From: Deltaproteobacteria bacterium
GTDB taxonomy: Bacteria; Desulfobacterota; Desulfomonilia; UBA1062
Reading direction: 5' to 3'
DNA: 64,000 bases
Assembly: GCA_017992605.1 (NCBI GenBank)
Contig: JAGOOG010000012.1
Location: 1 to 64,000 of the forward strand
Positions 38,799-45,422 of the stretch are shown piece after piece. The notes beneath the pieces are model-generated. The model was not told where the DNA came from and did no database searches. It saw nothing but the letters and a program-made list of their open reading frames with translations. A program made the position numbers and the translations under genes. The first letter of the stretch is position 1. The number at the start of each line of letters is the position of its first letter.

Positions 38799-38966
38799 CA
38801 ATACGTTCCGCTTCATCGCTCTGGCATCTGCGTCTCGGATAGGGTATAGTCAAGGAAGCATCTTCATAGTTGATCTTTCGTGTGCTGCGAAGTTCGTATG
38901 CATTCCCTCCTTTGTACAAGCTGACGAGTGACCGGGAGTCACGTCGTTGAGATGTGGAGGGAGCAC

Positions 38967-41900
38967 ATGATGTTCTGCCCGAAGTGCGGCGGTTCAGTAA
39001 CCCGAGCCGATCGTTATTGCCGTCTCTGCGGGGTCGACCTTCCATCACATTCCTCCGGCGCGGAGAACCGCCTCGTGACGATTCTCTGCACGGATCTGTG
39101 CGGTTATTCCCCCCTTGCCGAACGGCTCGACCCGGAAGACCTCAGGGAGTGCATGGCCAGGATCATGGGGGAGGTCACAACGGCCATTACCCGCTATGGT
39201 GGCACCATCGAGAAGTACATCGGCGATGCGGTGGTCGCCATATTCGGCCTGCACAGGGTGAAAGAAGACGATCCCGTCAGGGCGGTTCTTGCAGCCCGGC
39301 AGGCGCACCGGGCGGTGGAGCACATCGATCTTCCCCGGGGCCTGCGGCCCCCTGCCCCCCTGAGACTGCACACGGGCATCAACACCGGGGAAGTTATCGT
39401 GGATTTCAATGTGAGCGCAGCCTCACCCCACGGCACCCTCGGAAGACCCATCAATATTGCGTCCCGGCTCTGTGACCTCGCATCCGAAGGGGAGATACTC
39501 ATCGGTGAAGCCTTGGTCTCCACCGTGATGAGGTATTTCAATATCGAATGGAAGGGAAACCGGATGTTCAAAGGCATCCAGACACCTGTCCACGTGTACA
39601 GCGTGCTGGACGAAAAGAAGACGCCGGTGGCCGTTCATCGTGAAGGCGGCCTGACCTCGCAGCTGGTGGGGCGGGAGCATGAGCTTTCCATCCTTCTTTC
39701 TGGGGCTCGAGGTATCGCCGCGAAACGGAAAGGGGTGATCTGTATCAATGGAGAGGCAGGAGTAGGCAAGAGCAGACTCATAGGGGAATTCAGAGATCGC
39801 CTCGGAACAGGCTCGTCCTTTCTCATGGCATCATGCGTCGACCATGCGGGATCCATCCCGTACTTCCCCCTCTACAAGCTCATTCCGCCTGCAATGGAGC
39901 TGGTCGGCCTAGGCAGGAAGGTGAAGGAGAATTCGTGGAGTACCCCGGGCGGTGCTGAGCATGCCGATCACGTCAGGTGCCTGATGGCGGTCTTTGGAGG
40001 GTCCCCGGCAGGAGGCCATGGATCACGGCGGATCATCAGGGAGAGGCTCATCGACGCCGTGCATTGGCTCTTCCGGGAGGTCTCTTCTAGGATGCCGCTG
40101 GTCGTGTGCATCGAGGACATCCACTGGGCCGACCAGAGCACCCTCGACCTTATTGCCTATCTGGTGAACTCATGGGGGCAGGAGAGCCCCTGGCTGATGG
40201 TTTTTTCCCACAGGCCACACTGGGTCCCGGGGTTTGCGGCGACAAGGATCAACCTGAAAGATCTTTCACAGGAGGATGTGGGCCGCATGCTCTCGTCCAT
40301 GCTCGATGTCCCGTCCGTTCCCGATGAGATGGTGTTGTCCATGACTCACGCAACTGGGGGAAATCCGTTTTTCCTGGAAGAGATGGTAAACTATCTCCTG
40401 GAAAAGGGGGCAGGCGTGACCCTTCAGGGACGTGAGGCCGCTCCCTGGGAAATCCCAGCATCGCTCCATGGCCTCATAGCCTCACGCATCGATAGCCTTG
40501 ACGCCTCATCCAGGCGTATTCTTCAGGAAGCATCGCTGATCGGGAGGACTTTCCATGAGGGACTGCTGGCTTCAGTAAGTTCACAGGCGCTCGAGCTTGA
40601 GGAGGGCCTCGATAGTCTCGTCAGACATGGCTTCATCCACCAGGAGGGCGGGGGGGAGTACATTTTCAGACATGACATAATCCGCGACGTGGCCGGCAGG
40701 TCGCTCCTGAAGAAAGAACGCAGGGCGATCCACGGGCAGATCGGCCGGGCCCTGGAAGGGTCCACGGGTCCTGTCGAAGGTAGTGTGAGCGGGGTGCTTG
40801 CCTATCATTTCACCAGGGCACAGGAGTATGAAAAGGCCGTTCAGTGCTGCCTTGATGACGCCGTACGGTGCCGGGTGTCGGGTGCATGGGTCGAGGCCTC
40901 GATGCAGTATTTCGCTGCTGAGCGTATCCTTGAGTCACAGGCGAACCTTCCGGGTCGCACGGAGATGCTCCGGGACGTGAGGGAGGGTATCTGGAACTGC
41001 TGTCGTGTCTTCAACCCCGCCCGGGCAATCACTGCGCTCGAGGCCCTTGCGATCCACTATCGGAACATGGGGATGAGAAAGGAAGAGGCCTATTCCTTCA
41101 TACGCCTCATCAATCTCTATTCACAGCTGGGTCTATTTGGAAAGGCTCTCCATGCTTATGAGTACGGACTCTTGCTGTGCAGCGAAGACCCTCTGCTCAC
41201 TGCCGCCGCACGGACCGCCGTTGCCTATACCCACACCTTTCTCGGCAGGCCGCTGGTCGCGCTGGAACTGCTGGAGTCGGCCAGGCCCGTCCTGGAGTCG
41301 TCCGACTTGTTTCTCCGTGCGATCAATGCCCTGAGCACCCTGGCGGCAACGGTCTGGAAGGCCGACATGAAGAGTGCGGACGCGTGGTATTCACGAACCA
41401 AGGAATTGAGCGCCGATTACATGGATATCGACCTCATGGCTGATATGTGGCTTGCCCACATCTGCTGTCTTTTGGGGAGGTTCGAGCAGGCGCGCAGGGT
41501 CCACGACGAGGTTTCGATCCGGGAGAAGAAGCTCGGCAGAATGGCGGGAGGGCTGTCTTACCTGAGGATACAGGGCTCGATCTATTTCAGGGCCCGTTAC
41601 TTCGGAGACATTCCGGGAGCCCGGGCAGACCTTGCACGGTTCGATGTCCTGGGCTCCAACATCCTTGGCGCCGGATATCTCAAGGAACTCTACACGGCCT
41701 GGATCGCCCTCGAAGAAGGCCGTGTCTGCGAAGCCCATGACCGTGCCGGCCAAGCGCTGCCAGGTCTCAGGGAGGGCTTCGCCAACAGGGTTCCCTATGC
41801 CCTCAACACGCTGTCCGAGGCCAGGCTCCTCATGGGTGACGCCCAGGGAGCATCCCGGGCTGCTCTTGAGTGCATCGAGTGGAATGAACGATACGGCAAC

Positions 41901-42194
41901 GGTGACCAGCTCATATGGGCCTTGAGGATGTATGCCGAGGCCTGTGTGCTCATGGGGGAAACGATCCCGGCGAGCGACGCACTCGTGAAGGCCTGGCGTC
42001 TTTCCCGGGCCTCCGGCATGAAACCTCACCAGGCATGGATTCTCGAATCCTGTGGGAATCTCTTTCGCCACGAGGGCAACGTCCAGGGCGCGGTTCGGTA
42101 TTATGGCGCCTCGAAAAGGATCTGGGAAAGGATGGGCAATGCAGCCCAGGCGAGCAGGGTTGCGGCCCGGGAGCGTTTCGTCAAGCAGACATGA
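38967..42194 (+). CDS. Zinc-ribbon / class III nucleotidyl cyclase / AAA ATPase / TPR regulator
   Basis: 1,075 residues from the ATG at 38967 (GGAGG 6 bases upstream). Order: zinc ribbon CPKCG-CRLCG (residues 4-24); class III cyclase domain (about 35-215) with metal Asp in ILCTDLCGYSPL and in EKYIGDAVVAIFG (with the purine-contacting Lys) and transition-state Asn/Arg in INIASRL; then an AAA/STAND ATPase with Walker A NGEAGVGKSRLIGEF (near 270) and Walker B LVVCIEDIHWAD; then TPR-like helical repeats to the C-terminus. The second base-specificity residue (Asp or Thr, three residues before the Gly of LGRPIN) appears to be Gly, so the product nucleotide is uncertain. A cytoplasmic signal-integrating protein; ligand and target unknown. 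Confidence 0.9.
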   Translation: MMFCPKCGGSVTRADRYCRLCGVDLPSHSSGAENRLVTILCTDLCGYSPLAERLDPEDLRECMARIMGEVTTAITRYGGTIEKYIGDAVVAIFGLHRVKEDDPVRAVLAARQAHRAVEHIDLPRGLRPPAPLRLHTGINTGEVIVDFNVSAASPHGTLGRPINIASRLCDLASEGEILIGEALVSTVMRYFNIEWKGNRMFKGIQTPVHVYSVLDEKKTPVAVHREGGLTSQLVGREHELSILLSGARGIAAKRKGVICINGEAGVGKSRLIGEFRDRLGTGSSFLMASCVDHAGSIPYFPLYKLIPPAMELVGLGRKVKENSWSTPGGAEHADHVRCLMAVFGGSPAGGHGSRRIIRERLIDAVHWLFREVSSRMPLVVCIEDIHWADQSTLDLIAYLVNSWGQESPWLMVFSHRPHWVPGFAATRINLKDLSQEDVGRMLSSMLDVPSVPDEMVLSMTHATGGNPFFLEEMVNYLLEKGAGVTLQGREAAPWEIPASLHGLIASRIDSLDASSRRILQEASLIGRTFHEGLLASVSSQALELEEGLDSLVRHGFIHQEGGGEYIFRHDIIRDVAGRSLLKKERRAIHGQIGRALEGSTGPVEGSVSGVLAYHFTRAQEYEKAVQCCLDDAVRCRVSGAWVEASMQYFAAERILESQANLPGRTEMLRDVREGIWNCCRVFNPARAITALEALAIHYRNMGMRKEEAYSFIRLINLYSQLGLFGKALHAYEYGLLLCSEDPLLTAAARTAVAYTHTFLGRPLVALELLESARPVLESSDLFLRAINALSTLAATVWKADMKSADAWYSRTKELSADYMDIDLMADMWLAHICCLLGRFEQARRVHDEVSIREKKLGRMAGGLSYLRIQGSIYFRARYFGDIPGARADLARFDVLGSNILGAGYLKELYTAWIALEEGRVCEAHDRAGQALPGLREGFANRVPYALNTLSEARLLMGDAQGASRAALECIEWNERYGNGDQLIWALRMYAEACVLMGETIPASDALVKAWRLSRASGMKPHQAWILESCGNLFRHEGNVQGAVRYYGASKRIWERMGNAAQASRVAARERFVKQT

Positions 42195-42560
42195 CCCCTC
42201 GTGCAGGGTCGGGTCGATTACCATTCTGTAACCTGTCAGCCCATGGCCGGAGTGGAGCCGAACAGCGGAGAGAACGCCTCGATACCTGTCTTCCCCGGCG
42301 GTGAGGAGAAAAAGCTGGTGTGGCCCGGGTCCACTTGAATCACATTCATGTTCTCACGGGTTCCGATCGATAGGATACGTGAGAGTTGGGCGATGATGCC
42401 CGGACCGTTCTTTGACAATCTGCGGGAAGTGCCATGTGCGCTCTTTGGCTGCAGAGACCGCACATGGGTAAAAGAGTAACAGGAGCAGCGTTCAGCACCT
42501 CACGGTCAGTACGAGAGGGGTCGACAGGGATGCTCATGGTTTGGGGGCTCCGGAGATCGA
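42195..42560. other. Non-coding gap upstream of the riboswitches
   Basis: About 365 bases with no convincing gene on either strand. Short frames on the minus strand lack Shine-Dalgarno sequences and homology I recognise. The only structured element seen is the 9-bp inverted repeat at 42432-42467. A TTGACA occurs at 42412-42417 but has no acceptable -10 at 16-18 bases. Confidence 0.5.
42432..42467. repeat. Perfect 9-bp inverted repeat upstream of the aptamers
   Basis: CCATGTGCG (42432-42440) and CGCACATGG (42459-42467), with an inner CTCT/AGAG pairing, give a stable hairpin about 100 bases before the first riboswitch. It has no U-tract. It could be an operator, an RNA processing site, or the end of the cyclase transcript. 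Confidence 0.45.
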
Positions 42561-42561
42561 C

Positions 42562-42656
42562 TCCTTGCACACGCCAAACCACAGGCAACTGTGGGACGGA
42601 AAGCCACGGGTCCTCTCCCGGTCAGCCGGACGGACAGCCGGGCCGCCTGAGAAGGA
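42562..42656 (+). ncRNA. GEMM-I (cyclic dinucleotide) riboswitch, first aptamer
   Basis: Matches the GEMM-I core: GCACACG-C-CAAACC (42567-42580), then a P2 hairpin closed by a GNRA tetraloop (CCACAG-GCAA-CTGTGG), the conserved GGACGGAAAGCC (receptor side, about 42594-42605), and a P3 arm containing CCGG-TCAG-CCGG. The 3' signature ACAGCCGGGCCGCC (42634-42647) completes the core. TCCTT (42562-42566) and AAGGA (42652-42656) can close a P1 stem. GEMM-I RNAs bind c-di-GMP or, in a subgroup common in Geobacter, cGAMP. By eye the discriminating 5' residue is G, favouring c-di-GMP, but this alignment needs a covariance model. Confidence 0.8.
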
Positions 42657-42754
42657 TTCTGCAGAACAGTCTATCACTGCCACACCAGGGGTAACCCTGG
42701 GCCGGAAAGCCACGGGTCCACGCACGATTGGACAGCCGGGTTGCCTGGAGAACC
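42654..42754 (+). ncRNA. GEMM-I riboswitch, second tandem aptamer
   Basis: Repeats the same core: P2 with a GNRA loop (CCAGGG-GTAA-CCCTGG, 42685-42700), GGCCGGAAAGCCACGGGTCC, a P3 stem GTCCA/TGGAC around an 8-base loop, and the 3' signature GACAGCCGGGTTGCC (42731-42745). GGATTCT (42654-42660) can pair with AGAACC (42749-42754) with one bulge as P1. The 5' junction (CACTGCCACACC) departs from consensus more than the first copy. It ends about 10 bases before the Shine-Dalgarno of the downstream gene, so translational control is as likely as transcriptional. Confidence 0.72.
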
Positions 42755-42774
42755 TCATCAGAAAGGAGTTTTTC

Positions 42775-43248
42775 ATGAAGAACAAGAGCTTCTGTGCTGC
42801 TCTCTGTATGGTCGGGCTGCTCATGCTCCCATACCCTGCATCGGCACAGCTGGTGCCCCTGTCCGATGATCAGCTCGGCGAAGTCATCGGTCAGGCAGGG
42901 ATCGCCATTGACCAACACTTTGACAGTATGTCGGTGGTGGGTGGTCTCCTGAACTACAGCGACATCACCATCATCGGTTCGGTGGACTCGAGGGGGACCT
43001 ATAATGTCGACTCGAACTTCCTCAAGGAGATGGCCATGCCGGGCTTCGGCATGACCGGTCTTGGCCTCATGGGACTCGGGTCGCTGGGCCTCGGAACCCA
43101 CGTGATCGACATGACCATCGACATCGACCAGTTCACCATCGGTGCCATACGGATCGGGAACGACACCACAGGCCCGAGCCTCGGCAGCCTCTCCATTTAC
43201 GGATTGCATGCAGACGTCAAGGGAACAGTTTCGATATGGACACACTAG
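42775..43248 (+). CDS. DUF6160-like secreted protein under riboswitch control
   Basis: 157 residues. AAAGGAG lies 6 bases upstream of the ATG. A signal peptide (MKNKSFCAALCMVGLLMLP, then YPASA) is followed by the hallmark LVPLSDDQLGEVIGQAGIAID, which I associate with DUF6160-type and pilus-linked secreted proteins. The remainder is beta-rich and Gly/Leu-rich: YSDITIIGSVDSRGTYNV, then a short MTGLGLMGLGSLGLG run, IDMTIDIDQFTIGAIRIG and SLGSLSIYGLHADVKGTVSI. Probably surface-exposed or matrix-associated. Its expression should follow intracellular cyclic dinucleotide levels through the two upstream aptamers. Function unproven. Confidence 0.8.
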   Translation: MKNKSFCAALCMVGLLMLPYPASAQLVPLSDDQLGEVIGQAGIAIDQHFDSMSVVGGLLNYSDITIIGSVDSRGTYNVDSNFLKEMAMPGFGMTGLGLMGLGSLGLGTHVIDMTIDIDQFTIGAIRIGNDTTGPSLGSLSIYGLHADVKGTVSIWTH

Positions 43249-43330
43249 AACGCACAACGTTGCTCTTTTACCCCATTCCTCCCGGACATCCCGCCTGAGG
43301 CTCGGCGGGATATCTTCTCCATCGCAGAAG

Positions 43331-44131
43331 CTACTGGCGGATGAGCCGTGTATGCTCCACCCCGTCCTGGCCGACCGGGTCCGATCGCCGGTGCGCCGTG
43401 ATGTCGATGCCACCCCTGCGGGTATAGAAGCAGGTAACGCGTAGCGTATCCAGGGAGCATCGTTCCATGAGATCCACGTAGATGAGCTCGCTCACCTCTT
43501 CCGCAAACCCCCTGTGGTCCCGGTAGGAGCAGATGTACCTGAGCAGGGATGCGTGGTCGATGACCCTGCCGCGGTAGCGTACCTCCACCGTTGCCCAGTC
43601 CGGCTGCCCCGTTATGGGGCACGAGGTCTTGAGAAGATTCGAGGTAAGGGCCTCTTCCGTCTGCCCCTGTCCGCAGGACAGGAGGTCAGGTGTTCTGGTG
43701 TACGTGTCTATGGTTATGTCCTGGGTGTCCAGACAGGTTCCCCCGAGCTCTTTCCAGGATGGTGCGTCCTGGGGAGAAACGAGATCCGCCACGTTTATCG
43801 ACAACCACCCTGTCTTTAGAATGCTGCCGAGGTCCTGCCCGATCACTTGCCTCAGTTCTTCTCTGGAGGAAAACCGTTCGTACGAGAGACCGCCCAGGTA
43901 AAGCTTGAGCGATTTCGATTCCACGATGAACCCGCTCTGTACGGGATATGCGAGATCAAGGATGCCTGCTTCGGGCTTGCCCTTTTCGTCGAGCCAGGAA
44001 AGCTCGTAAGACCTCCAGAGGTCATAGCCGTGTACCGGTATCGGGCACGGTTTTCTCTGTATGGCGCACAGCACGGAAGGGTCACGCCTGACGGGCTGAT
44101 TCACCTTCCTGCCCAGCGGCAGCCTGCTCAC
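43331..44131 (-). CDS. queF: NADPH-dependent 7-cyano-7-deazaguanine reductase (long QueF type)
   Basis: 266 residues, the bimodular type seen in proteobacteria. QueF motif FIVESKSLKLYLGGLSYERF near residue 68 and the catalytic Cys in LLKTSCPITGQPDWATVEV near residue 170, followed by SLLRYICSYRDHRGFAEE. It reduces preQ0 to preQ1 in queuosine biosynthesis. Its start overlaps the queC stop (ATGA), and queE overlaps queC in turn, so queE-queC-queF form one coupled unit. QueD and a GTP cyclohydrolase are not in the window. Confidence 0.94.
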   Translation of the reverse strand: MSRLPLGRKVNQPVRRDPSVLCAIQRKPCPIPVHGYDLWRSYELSWLDEKGKPEAGILDLAYPVQSGFIVESKSLKLYLGGLSYERFSSREELRQVIGQDLGSILKTGWLSINVADLVSPQDAPSWKELGGTCLDTQDITIDTYTRTPDLLSCGQGQTEEALTSNLLKTSCPITGQPDWATVEVRYRGRVIDHASLLRYICSYRDHRGFAEEVSELIYVDLMERCSLDTLRVTCFYTRRGGIDITAHRRSDPVGQDGVEHTRLIRQ

Positions 44132-44790
44132 GAGAGGTACCTCGTGGGATCAATTCCCGCATCGAATTCCAGTGCGTACTTCCGTTCGAGGCAGGTGGCG
44201 CAGGTGCCGCAGTGGAGGTCGAGGCCCTTGTAGCACGACCACGTCATGGTGAAATCGAAGCCCAGGTCCCTGCCGATCCGTGCGATCCCGCGTTTGTCGA
44301 ATCCGGAGAAGGGGGCTTTGACCATCACCTTGGTGAAGGTCCCGAGGGTCGAGGCCTGGGACATGGCGTCTGTGAACTCGCTCGTGCAGTCAGGATAGAC
44401 GGGATGGTCACCGGTGTGGGATGCGATGAGGACGGTGCCTATCCGGTGCGTCTCCGCGTATCCCGTTGCGATGGCGAGCATGATCCCGTTCCTGAAGGGC
44501 ACCACCGTGGAAGATATCGAGTCCGGGCGGTACGGGCCGTCAGGTATCGCTTCTCCGGACTGCAGCAGGCTCGAGGTGAACAGTGCATTGATGAAAGGGA
44601 GCCCCACCTCGGTGAACGTTGCGCCGTACTCCTGGGCAAGCCGGCGGGCCATGTAGACCTCCTTGGCTGCATGCTTGGACCCGTAGTCGAAGCTCAAGGC
44701 ATGGACAGCCGCATACCGCGGCCTTGACCAGGCAAGGAGCACCCCTGAATCCATACCTCCAGAAAGCAGGATAACGGCATCTTCCATCAT
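44128..44790 (-). CDS. queC: 7-cyano-7-deazaguanine synthase QueC
   Basis: 220 residues. N-terminal PP-loop ILLSGGMDSGVLLAWSR, the SFDYGSKHAAKE motif, PFRNGIMLAIATGYAE, and the C-terminal zinc site WSCYKGLDLHCGTCATCLERK. It makes preQ0 from 7-carboxy-7-deazaguanine, ammonia and ATP. Overlaps both neighbours by four bases. Confidence 0.95.
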   Translation of the reverse strand: MMEDAVILLSGGMDSGVLLAWSRPRYAAVHALSFDYGSKHAAKEVYMARRLAQEYGATFTEVGLPFINALFTSSLLQSGEAIPDGPYRPDSISSTVVPFRNGIMLAIATGYAETHRIGTVLIASHTGDHPVYPDCTSEFTDAMSQASTLGTFTKVMVKAPFSGFDKRGIARIGRDLGFDFTMTWSCYKGLDLHCGTCATCLERKYALEFDAGIDPTRYLS

Positions 44791-45422
44791 ACCCCCCGCT
44801 GATCGTCGAATATCAGGATATGGAGCCTCGGTGTCATCCGGAACCCGCTGTCCCTGCAGAAGGCGAAAACGGAAGCCATCCTCGCCAGCTGTTCCTCCCT
44901 GGTGGATCCCATGGGCATGACGAAGACCTTCTCTGCAGGGGTGGCGTTGTCTGTGATGAACCGTCCGATCTCGTCAAGGGAGGCCCTGTCATCGGCAATG
45001 AACTTGAGATAGTCCGCCTTTCCCACGGTTTTTCCTGATACGTGCCACCTCCCCTCGATGTGTTTGGGGCTCAGGACAACGGTCGCGTTCGCCAGGTCGG
45101 GAATGCCCGCCTTGCCGCTCGTCTCATAGAGGATGCGGTAGCGCCTTTTTACGAGTTCACGGTGCAGGTCTTCCAGCCCGGTCTCCCACTGCAGGAACGG
45201 CTCCCCGCCGGTTATCACGATGTCCCTGCACCTGTACCGCTCGATCCTGTGGAGAATTTCGTCACCCTGCATTTCAGAGAACTCGTGCCAGGCATAGCTG
45301 GTGTCACACCACGGGCACAGGGGTTCGATGCATCCGCCCAGGCGGACGAACACCGAGGGCAGGCCGATCAGGGGGCCTTCGCCCTGGAGCGAAAGGAAGA
45401 TCTCGGTGACCACGAGGTTCAT
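44787..45422 (-). CDS. queE: 7-carboxy-7-deazaguanine synthase QueE
   Basis: 211-residue radical-SAM enzyme. N-terminal VTEIFLSLQGEGPLIGLPSVFVRLGGC, then the cluster region CIEPLCPWCDTSYAWHEF. The spacing C-x3-C-x2-C is read from EPLCPWC with the preceding Cys in GGC. SAM-binding VITGGEPFLQ follows. It converts 6-carboxytetrahydropterin into the deazaguanine ring. First gene of the que unit; it begins 17 bases after the DUF362 gene ends on the same strand, so the que genes may be transcribed with it. Confidence 0.94.
   Translation of the reverse strand: MNLVVTEIFLSLQGEGPLIGLPSVFVRLGGCIEPLCPWCDTSYAWHEFSEMQGDEILHRIERYRCRDIVITGGEPFLQWETGLEDLHRELVKRRYRILYETSGKAGIPDLANATVVLSPKHIEGRWHVSGKTVGKADYLKFIADDRASLDEIGRFITDNATPAEKVFVMPMGSTREEQLARMASVFAFCRDSGFRMTPRLHILIFDDQRGV

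Follow-up and report, generated by a model that had tools for sequence, protein, structure and literature searches.

A tandem GEMM-I riboswitch array precedes a DUF6160 gene whose mRNA has an rRNA-like leader and trailer in an uncultured deltaproteobacterium

The window analyzed here is a stretch of 64,000 nucleotides of contig JAGOOG010000012.1 (assembly GCA_017992605.1). At the locus described below, two GEMM-I aptamers stand before a gene for a small DUF6160 protein, with a nucleotide cyclase gene upstream and convergent queuosine precursor genes downstream. The positions of these features in the window are as follows.

38928-42194, + strand: class III nucleotide cyclase fused to AAA and TPR regions, resembling the TOMM kinase/cyclase but below the cut-off
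42564..42651, + strand: aptamer A, GEMM-I, a chimera of copy 1 and copy 2
42573, 42600 and 42646, + strand: pocket bases G20, A47 and C92 of aptamer A
42669..42748, + strand: aptamer B, GEMM-I
42679, 42706 and 42744, + strand: pocket bases G20, A47 and C92 of aptamer B
42775..43248, + strand: DUF6160 gene, 157 aa, predicted secreted, start codon ATG at 42775, with orthologues in 13 genomes
43331-45422, − strand: queuosine precursor genes queF, queC and queE, in convergent orientation to the DUF6160 gene

A sequence-only reading had recognized two GEMM-I cores before the Shine-Dalgarno (SD) sequence, and both were matched by the Rfam covariance models. With RF01051 (gathering cut-off, 35 bits), aptamer A scored 60.1 bits and aptamer B 55.3 bits (E = 4.3e-8). 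With RF03167 (gathering cut-off, 59 bits), aptamer A scored 62.3 bits (E = 2.7e-12) and aptamer B 54.4 bits, which is below the cut-off. The core motifs are found in each copy, i.e., a GNRA-capped P2 (GCAA in one and GUAA in the other), GGAAAGCCACGGGTCC, and ACAGCCGGG followed by GCC. Exactly two GEMM-I RNAs exceeded the curated scores in the window, both on the + strand, and no third GEMM-I RNA was detected at E ≤ 1 anywhere in the genome (2.71 Mb, 98% complete). A chance match is excluded by these E-values and by conservation at the corresponding position of 13 genomes; as GEMM-I RNAs, the aptamers are unexceptional. With the c-di-GMP-I family (RF01051), they share the sequence, the P2/P3 structure, and the pocket bases G20, A47, and C92; they differ from it in that the P2 pair is C21–G46 instead of the common G–C, and in that they stand in an array with what is probably a shared platform.

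The product of the downstream gene had been described as a small secreted, DUF6160-like protein, and our analysis agrees: it matched PF19657 with 35.1 bits (cut-off, 27 bits), and its N-terminus is a hydrophobic signal-like stretch. With the FilA/DUF6160 proteins (PF19657, NF050077), it has an N-terminal signal and a GQAG motif in common. One orthologue matched FilA weakly (28 bits), far under the FilA cut-off of 220 bits, and the C-terminal half of the product is unlike known proteins. No relative was found in the PDB, and the structure prediction gave an unusable model (pLDDT 35). Many DUF6160 proteins, at this locus and at others, terminate in a few residues of the type ISAH, ISAR, or IWAH, which may serve as a signal for sorting or assembly. 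A viral source was considered for the gene and rejected, there being no relative in viral contigs.

We analyzed the distribution of this arrangement among related genomes. A GEMM-I array of two or three aptamers lies directly 5' of the orthologous DUF6160 gene in 13 of the 24 genomes of the same order, and all 36 GEMM-I matches in those 13 genomes sit at the DUF6160 locus. The relatives with names are uncultured Deltaproteobacteria or Thermodesulfobacteriota MAGs, two of them labelled Syntrophaceae. Three intact aptamers are present in 10 of the 13 genomes, the first copy is degenerate in two others (G012 and G017), and the window, which represents the 13th genome, has two aptamers; at least two intact aptamers are kept in every case. 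The 5' half of aptamer A resembles copy 1 of the relatives (39–42 of 46 positions identical, vs. 32–35 for copy 2), and its 3' flank resembles copy 2 (32–36 of 40 identical, vs. 23–25 for copy 1). Aptamer A is therefore a chimera of the two, and the missing aptamer of the window was most likely lost through recombination between direct repeats. A decayed first aptamer at approximately 42480-42560 was also considered and rejected, because the alignment places this stretch against the region that precedes the aptamers in the sister genomes. Synteny is complete, and the orientation of the locus is constant, across the 13 genomes: the riboswitch unit has the cyclase-AAA-TPR gene as its upstream neighbor in each of the 12 relatives, and queF, accompanied by queC and queE, is convergent downstream wherever the contig extends far enough.

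Of 395 genomes sampled from the phylum, 21 encode DUF6160 proteins, often more than one each, and a further DUF6160 gene elsewhere in the genome studied here has no GEMM-I RNA. Outside the order, a single GEMM-I RNA with G20 lies directly 5' of a DUF6160 gene in two of the 13 DUF6160 genomes checked, and these two genomes belong to two different families, so the pairing of GEMM-I with DUF6160 recurs. The two single aptamers are at 1781-1874 of L136 and 1747-1846 of L133, both on the − strand and each directly before its DUF6160 gene. No boxA or trailer motif was found near these two loci in the stretch examined, and this order alone yielded the tandem form together with leader and trailer. A strong single GEMM-I RNA (78 bits; L015, 1501-1592) was observed in genome G003 of the same order, and the search of that genome gave no DUF6160 relative.

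The earlier reading placed the unit between the aptamers and the end of the gene. The tandem aptamers before the gene stand, but the conserved unit is wider, extending from approximately 42346 (promoter) to 43273 (3' trailer strand), and the predicted promoter, the rRNA-like leader with its boxA, the leader-trailer helix, and the aptamer triplet of the relatives had been missed. The additional elements are the following.

42346..42373, + strand: predicted sigma-28 (FliA)-like promoter, TCATGTTC-N12-ATCGATAG; TMATGTTT-N11-NTCGATA in the relatives
42386..42403, + strand: boxB-like hairpin directly 5' of boxA, also flagged as a stem-loop; at the same place with diverged sequence in 13 of 13 genomes
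42407..42418, + strand: boxA GTTCTTTGACAA, invariant except for one Y position in 13 genomes
42432..42467, + strand: leader hairpin H1, CCATGTG...CACATGG, 12 pairs
42466..42480, + strand: leader strand GGGTAAAAGAGTAAC, which pairs with the trailer and can alternatively pair with boxA
43259..43273, + strand: trailer strand GTTGCTCTTTTACCC, 10 nt past the stop codon

The order of sigma-28-like promoter, hairpin, GYTCTTTGACAA, covarying hairpin, GGGTAAAAGAGTRRC, and aptamers is the same in the 13 genomes. R1, a covariance model built on the leader, found one full-length copy in each of exactly these 13 genomes among 42 of the class, and no other Rfam family of note was detected in the leader or trailer. 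The best sigma-28 match falls at the same aligned place in 13 of 13 genomes, with 10–12 of the 16 consensus bases; the match in the window is weak and, taken alone, not above chance. In most relatives, the spacing is that of the flagellin promoter of the genome studied here. No sigma-70 promoter was found in the leader, and transcription probably starts at the sigma-28-type promoter. In H1, 4 of the 12 pairs show compensatory changes, and 96.8% of the cells are paired across the 13 genomes.

The boxA GTTCTTTGACAA is the only copy in this genome, and GYTCTTTGACAA is present in all 13 genomes. It is one base (G for A) off the gamma-proteobacterial consensus GYTCTTTAANA (PMC5725501). In four genomes of the same order, a boxA-like intergenic sequence, GTTCTTTGACAA(C/T)TGAATA, was observed upstream of CRISPR arrays (L093 and L103) or cas1 (L095 and L098). 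No rRNA was found beside the boxA matches in these draft genomes of the order, the contexts being CRISPR/cas instead. A boxA at CRISPR arrays has reportedly been described in one paper. By analogy with rRNA transcripts, the boxB-like hairpin and boxA of the nascent leader would recruit NusB/NusE, which would keep Rho off the untranslated leader of ∼390 nt; a role of the element in antitermination is suggested by the same analogy, and we give this boxA an even chance of being functional.

The complement of GGGTAAAAGAGTRRC lies 9–12 nt past the stop codon in 13 of 13 genomes. The resulting leader:trailer helix comprises 13 bp in the 13 genomes, with 99.4% of the cells paired; eight cells are changed, all of them compatible with G-U pairing, and one cell is a terminal mismatch. 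No pair is changed on both sides, and 9 of the 13 pairs never vary. The leader and trailer copies form a unique pair in the genome, and the predicted energy of their duplex is −21.9 kcal/mol, compared with only −4.6 kcal/mol for leader:boxA. The leader strand and the strand just past the stop codon would pair and close the mRNA end to end, a helix that probably serves stability or processing.

To which ligand the aptamers respond can be judged from the pocket bases (numbering after PMC4744006 and PMC7288161). G20, A47, and C92 are present in both window copies and in every intact relative copy that was read. GGDEF has eight matches in the genome, seven with a readable motif, and none of these seven motifs carries the Hypr-type (cGAMP-type) serine. 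Because the three pocket bases are kept and the seven readable motifs lack this serine, the ligand is likely to be c-di-GMP. Control of the DUF6160 gene by a cyclic dinucleotide, as proposed by the earlier reading, is well supported by the sequence and in our view highly likely. The same reading had named c-di-GMP or cGAMP as the ligand; the former is probable and the latter is disfavored by the G20 of the intact copies and by the absence of a Hypr serine. That the aptamers sense cGAMP or another dinucleotide would be consistent with the score of copy A, for which the variant family RF03167 is the best model, and with the abundance of cGAMP riboswitches in Geobacter, a related group (PMC6456294). 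However, the cGAMP riboswitches (GEMM-Ib) carry A20, and an A20G exchange turns one of them to c-di-GMP (PMC6456294), whereas all intact copies at this locus have G20. At the variant position, the window reads GGAAAG and the RF03167 consensus GCGAAG; A47 is kept as in RF01051 and stands where the RF03167 consensus has G, so the aptamers are not filed under RF03167. By our reading of the two consensus sequences, a G at the A47 position would be what defines that variant. With no Hypr GGDEF seen (one of the eight GGDEF matches was unreadable), we consider the cGAMP reading very unlikely. The Geobacter GEMM-Ib riboswitches belong to the same aptamer superfamily, some of them are tandem, and their surface and electron-transfer targets (PMC6456294) are a likeness to the present case. 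They have A20 and not G20, and Geobacter has ∼17 riboswitches, compared with one target locus in this genome.

We then considered how the two aptamers might act on the gene. The strands involved in the predicted expression platform are listed below.

42561..42566, + strand: CUCCUU, predicted anti-SD strand or 5' P1 strand of aptamer A; CUCCU at the same place in 13 of 13 genomes
42647..42664, + strand: CUGAGAAGGAUUCUGCAG, predicted either to complete P1 of aptamer A as its 3' strand or to form the 5' side of helix B; with almost no variation among 13 genomes
42745..42761, + strand: CUGGAGAACCUCAUCAG, predicted 3' strand of helix B
42763..42768, + strand: SD sequence AAGGAG, invariant in 13 genomes

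CUCCU, the complement of the SD sequence, stands before the penultimate aptamer in 13 of 13 genomes. Helix B, in which the 3' flank of the penultimate aptamer is paired with the 3' flank of the last one, encloses the last aptamer and has a predicted energy of −16.2 kcal/mol; shuffled sequences averaged −5.9 kcal/mol, and one of 1,000 shuffles reached the value of helix B. With the aptamer cores held, both anti-SD:SD and helix B form with P 1.00 in the window, and anti-SD:SD has P > 0.45 in 9 of the 13 genomes. CUCCU and GAGAAGG are both taken up by P1 of the penultimate aptamer, and forcing this P1 made the SD sequence more open in 11 of 13 genomes and left it unchanged in two. In the window, P1 is poor, forcing it costing 18 kcal/mol above the ligand-free ensemble, and in a longer window stretch folded without constraints, anti-SD:SD is not favored (P 0.04). 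With so little variation in the platform strands, covariation provides almost no test of the platform. No intrinsic terminator was found between or after the aptamers in the window, nor any terminator-like site that would give each aptamer an independent platform, and both copies probably share one translational platform, in non-equivalent positions. This anatomy points away from the earlier suggestion that the tandem aptamers would sharpen the response.

According to this model, in the absence of ligand, CUCCUU would pair with the SD sequence and the aptamer 3' flanks would pair together as helix B, and translation would be off because both helices form. Binding of c-di-GMP to the upstream aptamer would allow P1 to form and capture CUCCUU as well as GAGAAGG, so that neither OFF helix could persist and the SD sequence would become accessible. 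Because the P1 of the upstream aptamer takes both OFF-helix strands, c-di-GMP would switch translation ON, a polarity for which the predicted folds make the case about evenly balanced. The last aptamer may act differently from the upstream copy. The control would be translational rather than transcriptional, and the overall reading of c-di-GMP control with a translational platform seems to us slightly better than an even prospect.

The position of the last aptamer inside helix B, whose inner end abuts the 3' end of that aptamer, and its lack of a conserved P1 of its own also suit an OFF or band-pass switch, in which binding to the last aptamer would stabilize helix B and keep the SD sequence paired, the copies being opposed or jointly repressing. 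However, 14–17 unconserved nt lie between helix B and the 5' end of the last aptamer, so ligand need not stabilize helix B, and we regard this arrangement as rather unlikely. Control of transcription itself, by Rho-dependent termination in the untranslated leader modulated by boxA, with the SD pairing as a by-product, appears unlikely: the leader does carry a boxA, and the known tandem c-di-GMP-I systems mostly have separate, often transcriptional, platforms (PMC4759541, PMC9481103), but intrinsic terminators are absent between and after the aptamers, and the SD sequence and its complement are kept in 13 of 13 genomes. Similarly doubtful is the idea that the inverted pair GGTAAAAGAGTAAC is a DNA feature (two protein sites, or the termini of a segment that moves or inverts) and not an RNA helix. 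Its invariance exceeds what pairing alone demands, as is evident from the nine constant pairs, but the differences between the copies within a genome are all G-U-compatible except for the one terminal mismatch, the repeats do not include the conserved promoter, boxA, or H1, and the locus keeps a single orientation. A mobile or invertible segment was rejected, since the synteny speaks against it.

Tandem c-di-GMP-I arrays are known as 347 doublets and 12 triplets (PMC9481103). In Bc3-5 of Bacillus thuringiensis (PMC4759541), three tandem c-di-GMP-I aptamers precede one gene or operon, as in the ten relatives with triplets; Bc3-5 consists of three complete riboswitches, whereas here the flanking strands overlap in one predicted SD platform, and that paper mentions neither boxA nor a trailer. 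The rRNA leader (PMC10250234) has the same order of hairpin, boxA, leader strand, body, and complementary trailer strand, but the body here is a riboswitch mRNA, and the helix is 13–16 bp, compared with the >17 bp needed in Escherichia coli rRNA (PMC10250234). The suhB gene of E. coli (PMC5725501) likewise has a boxA within the 5' UTR of a protein gene; that boxA is near the SD sequence and represses, whereas here ∼350 nt separate boxA from the start codon downstream, and boxA precedes the aptamers. No description of a riboswitch combined with a boxA/NusB leader was found in the titles or abstracts of the matching papers in an open-access library. The new features here are the rRNA-like leader and trailer and a predicted platform whose strands overlap and which the aptamers share.

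Tentatively, the locus may be seen as a riboswitch mRNA in which an rRNA transcription package (boxB-like hairpin, boxA, and leader-trailer pairing), a tandem c-di-GMP platform, and the flagellar sigma factor would place three layers of control on one secreted protein. As the only GEMM-I target of the genome, the DUF6160 gene may well encode a surface or motility-transition factor, and the recurrence of this pairing in two further families points to a wider occurrence. If the reading is true, antitermination by Nus factors would also protect long structured regulatory leaders, beyond rRNA and CRISPR transcripts.
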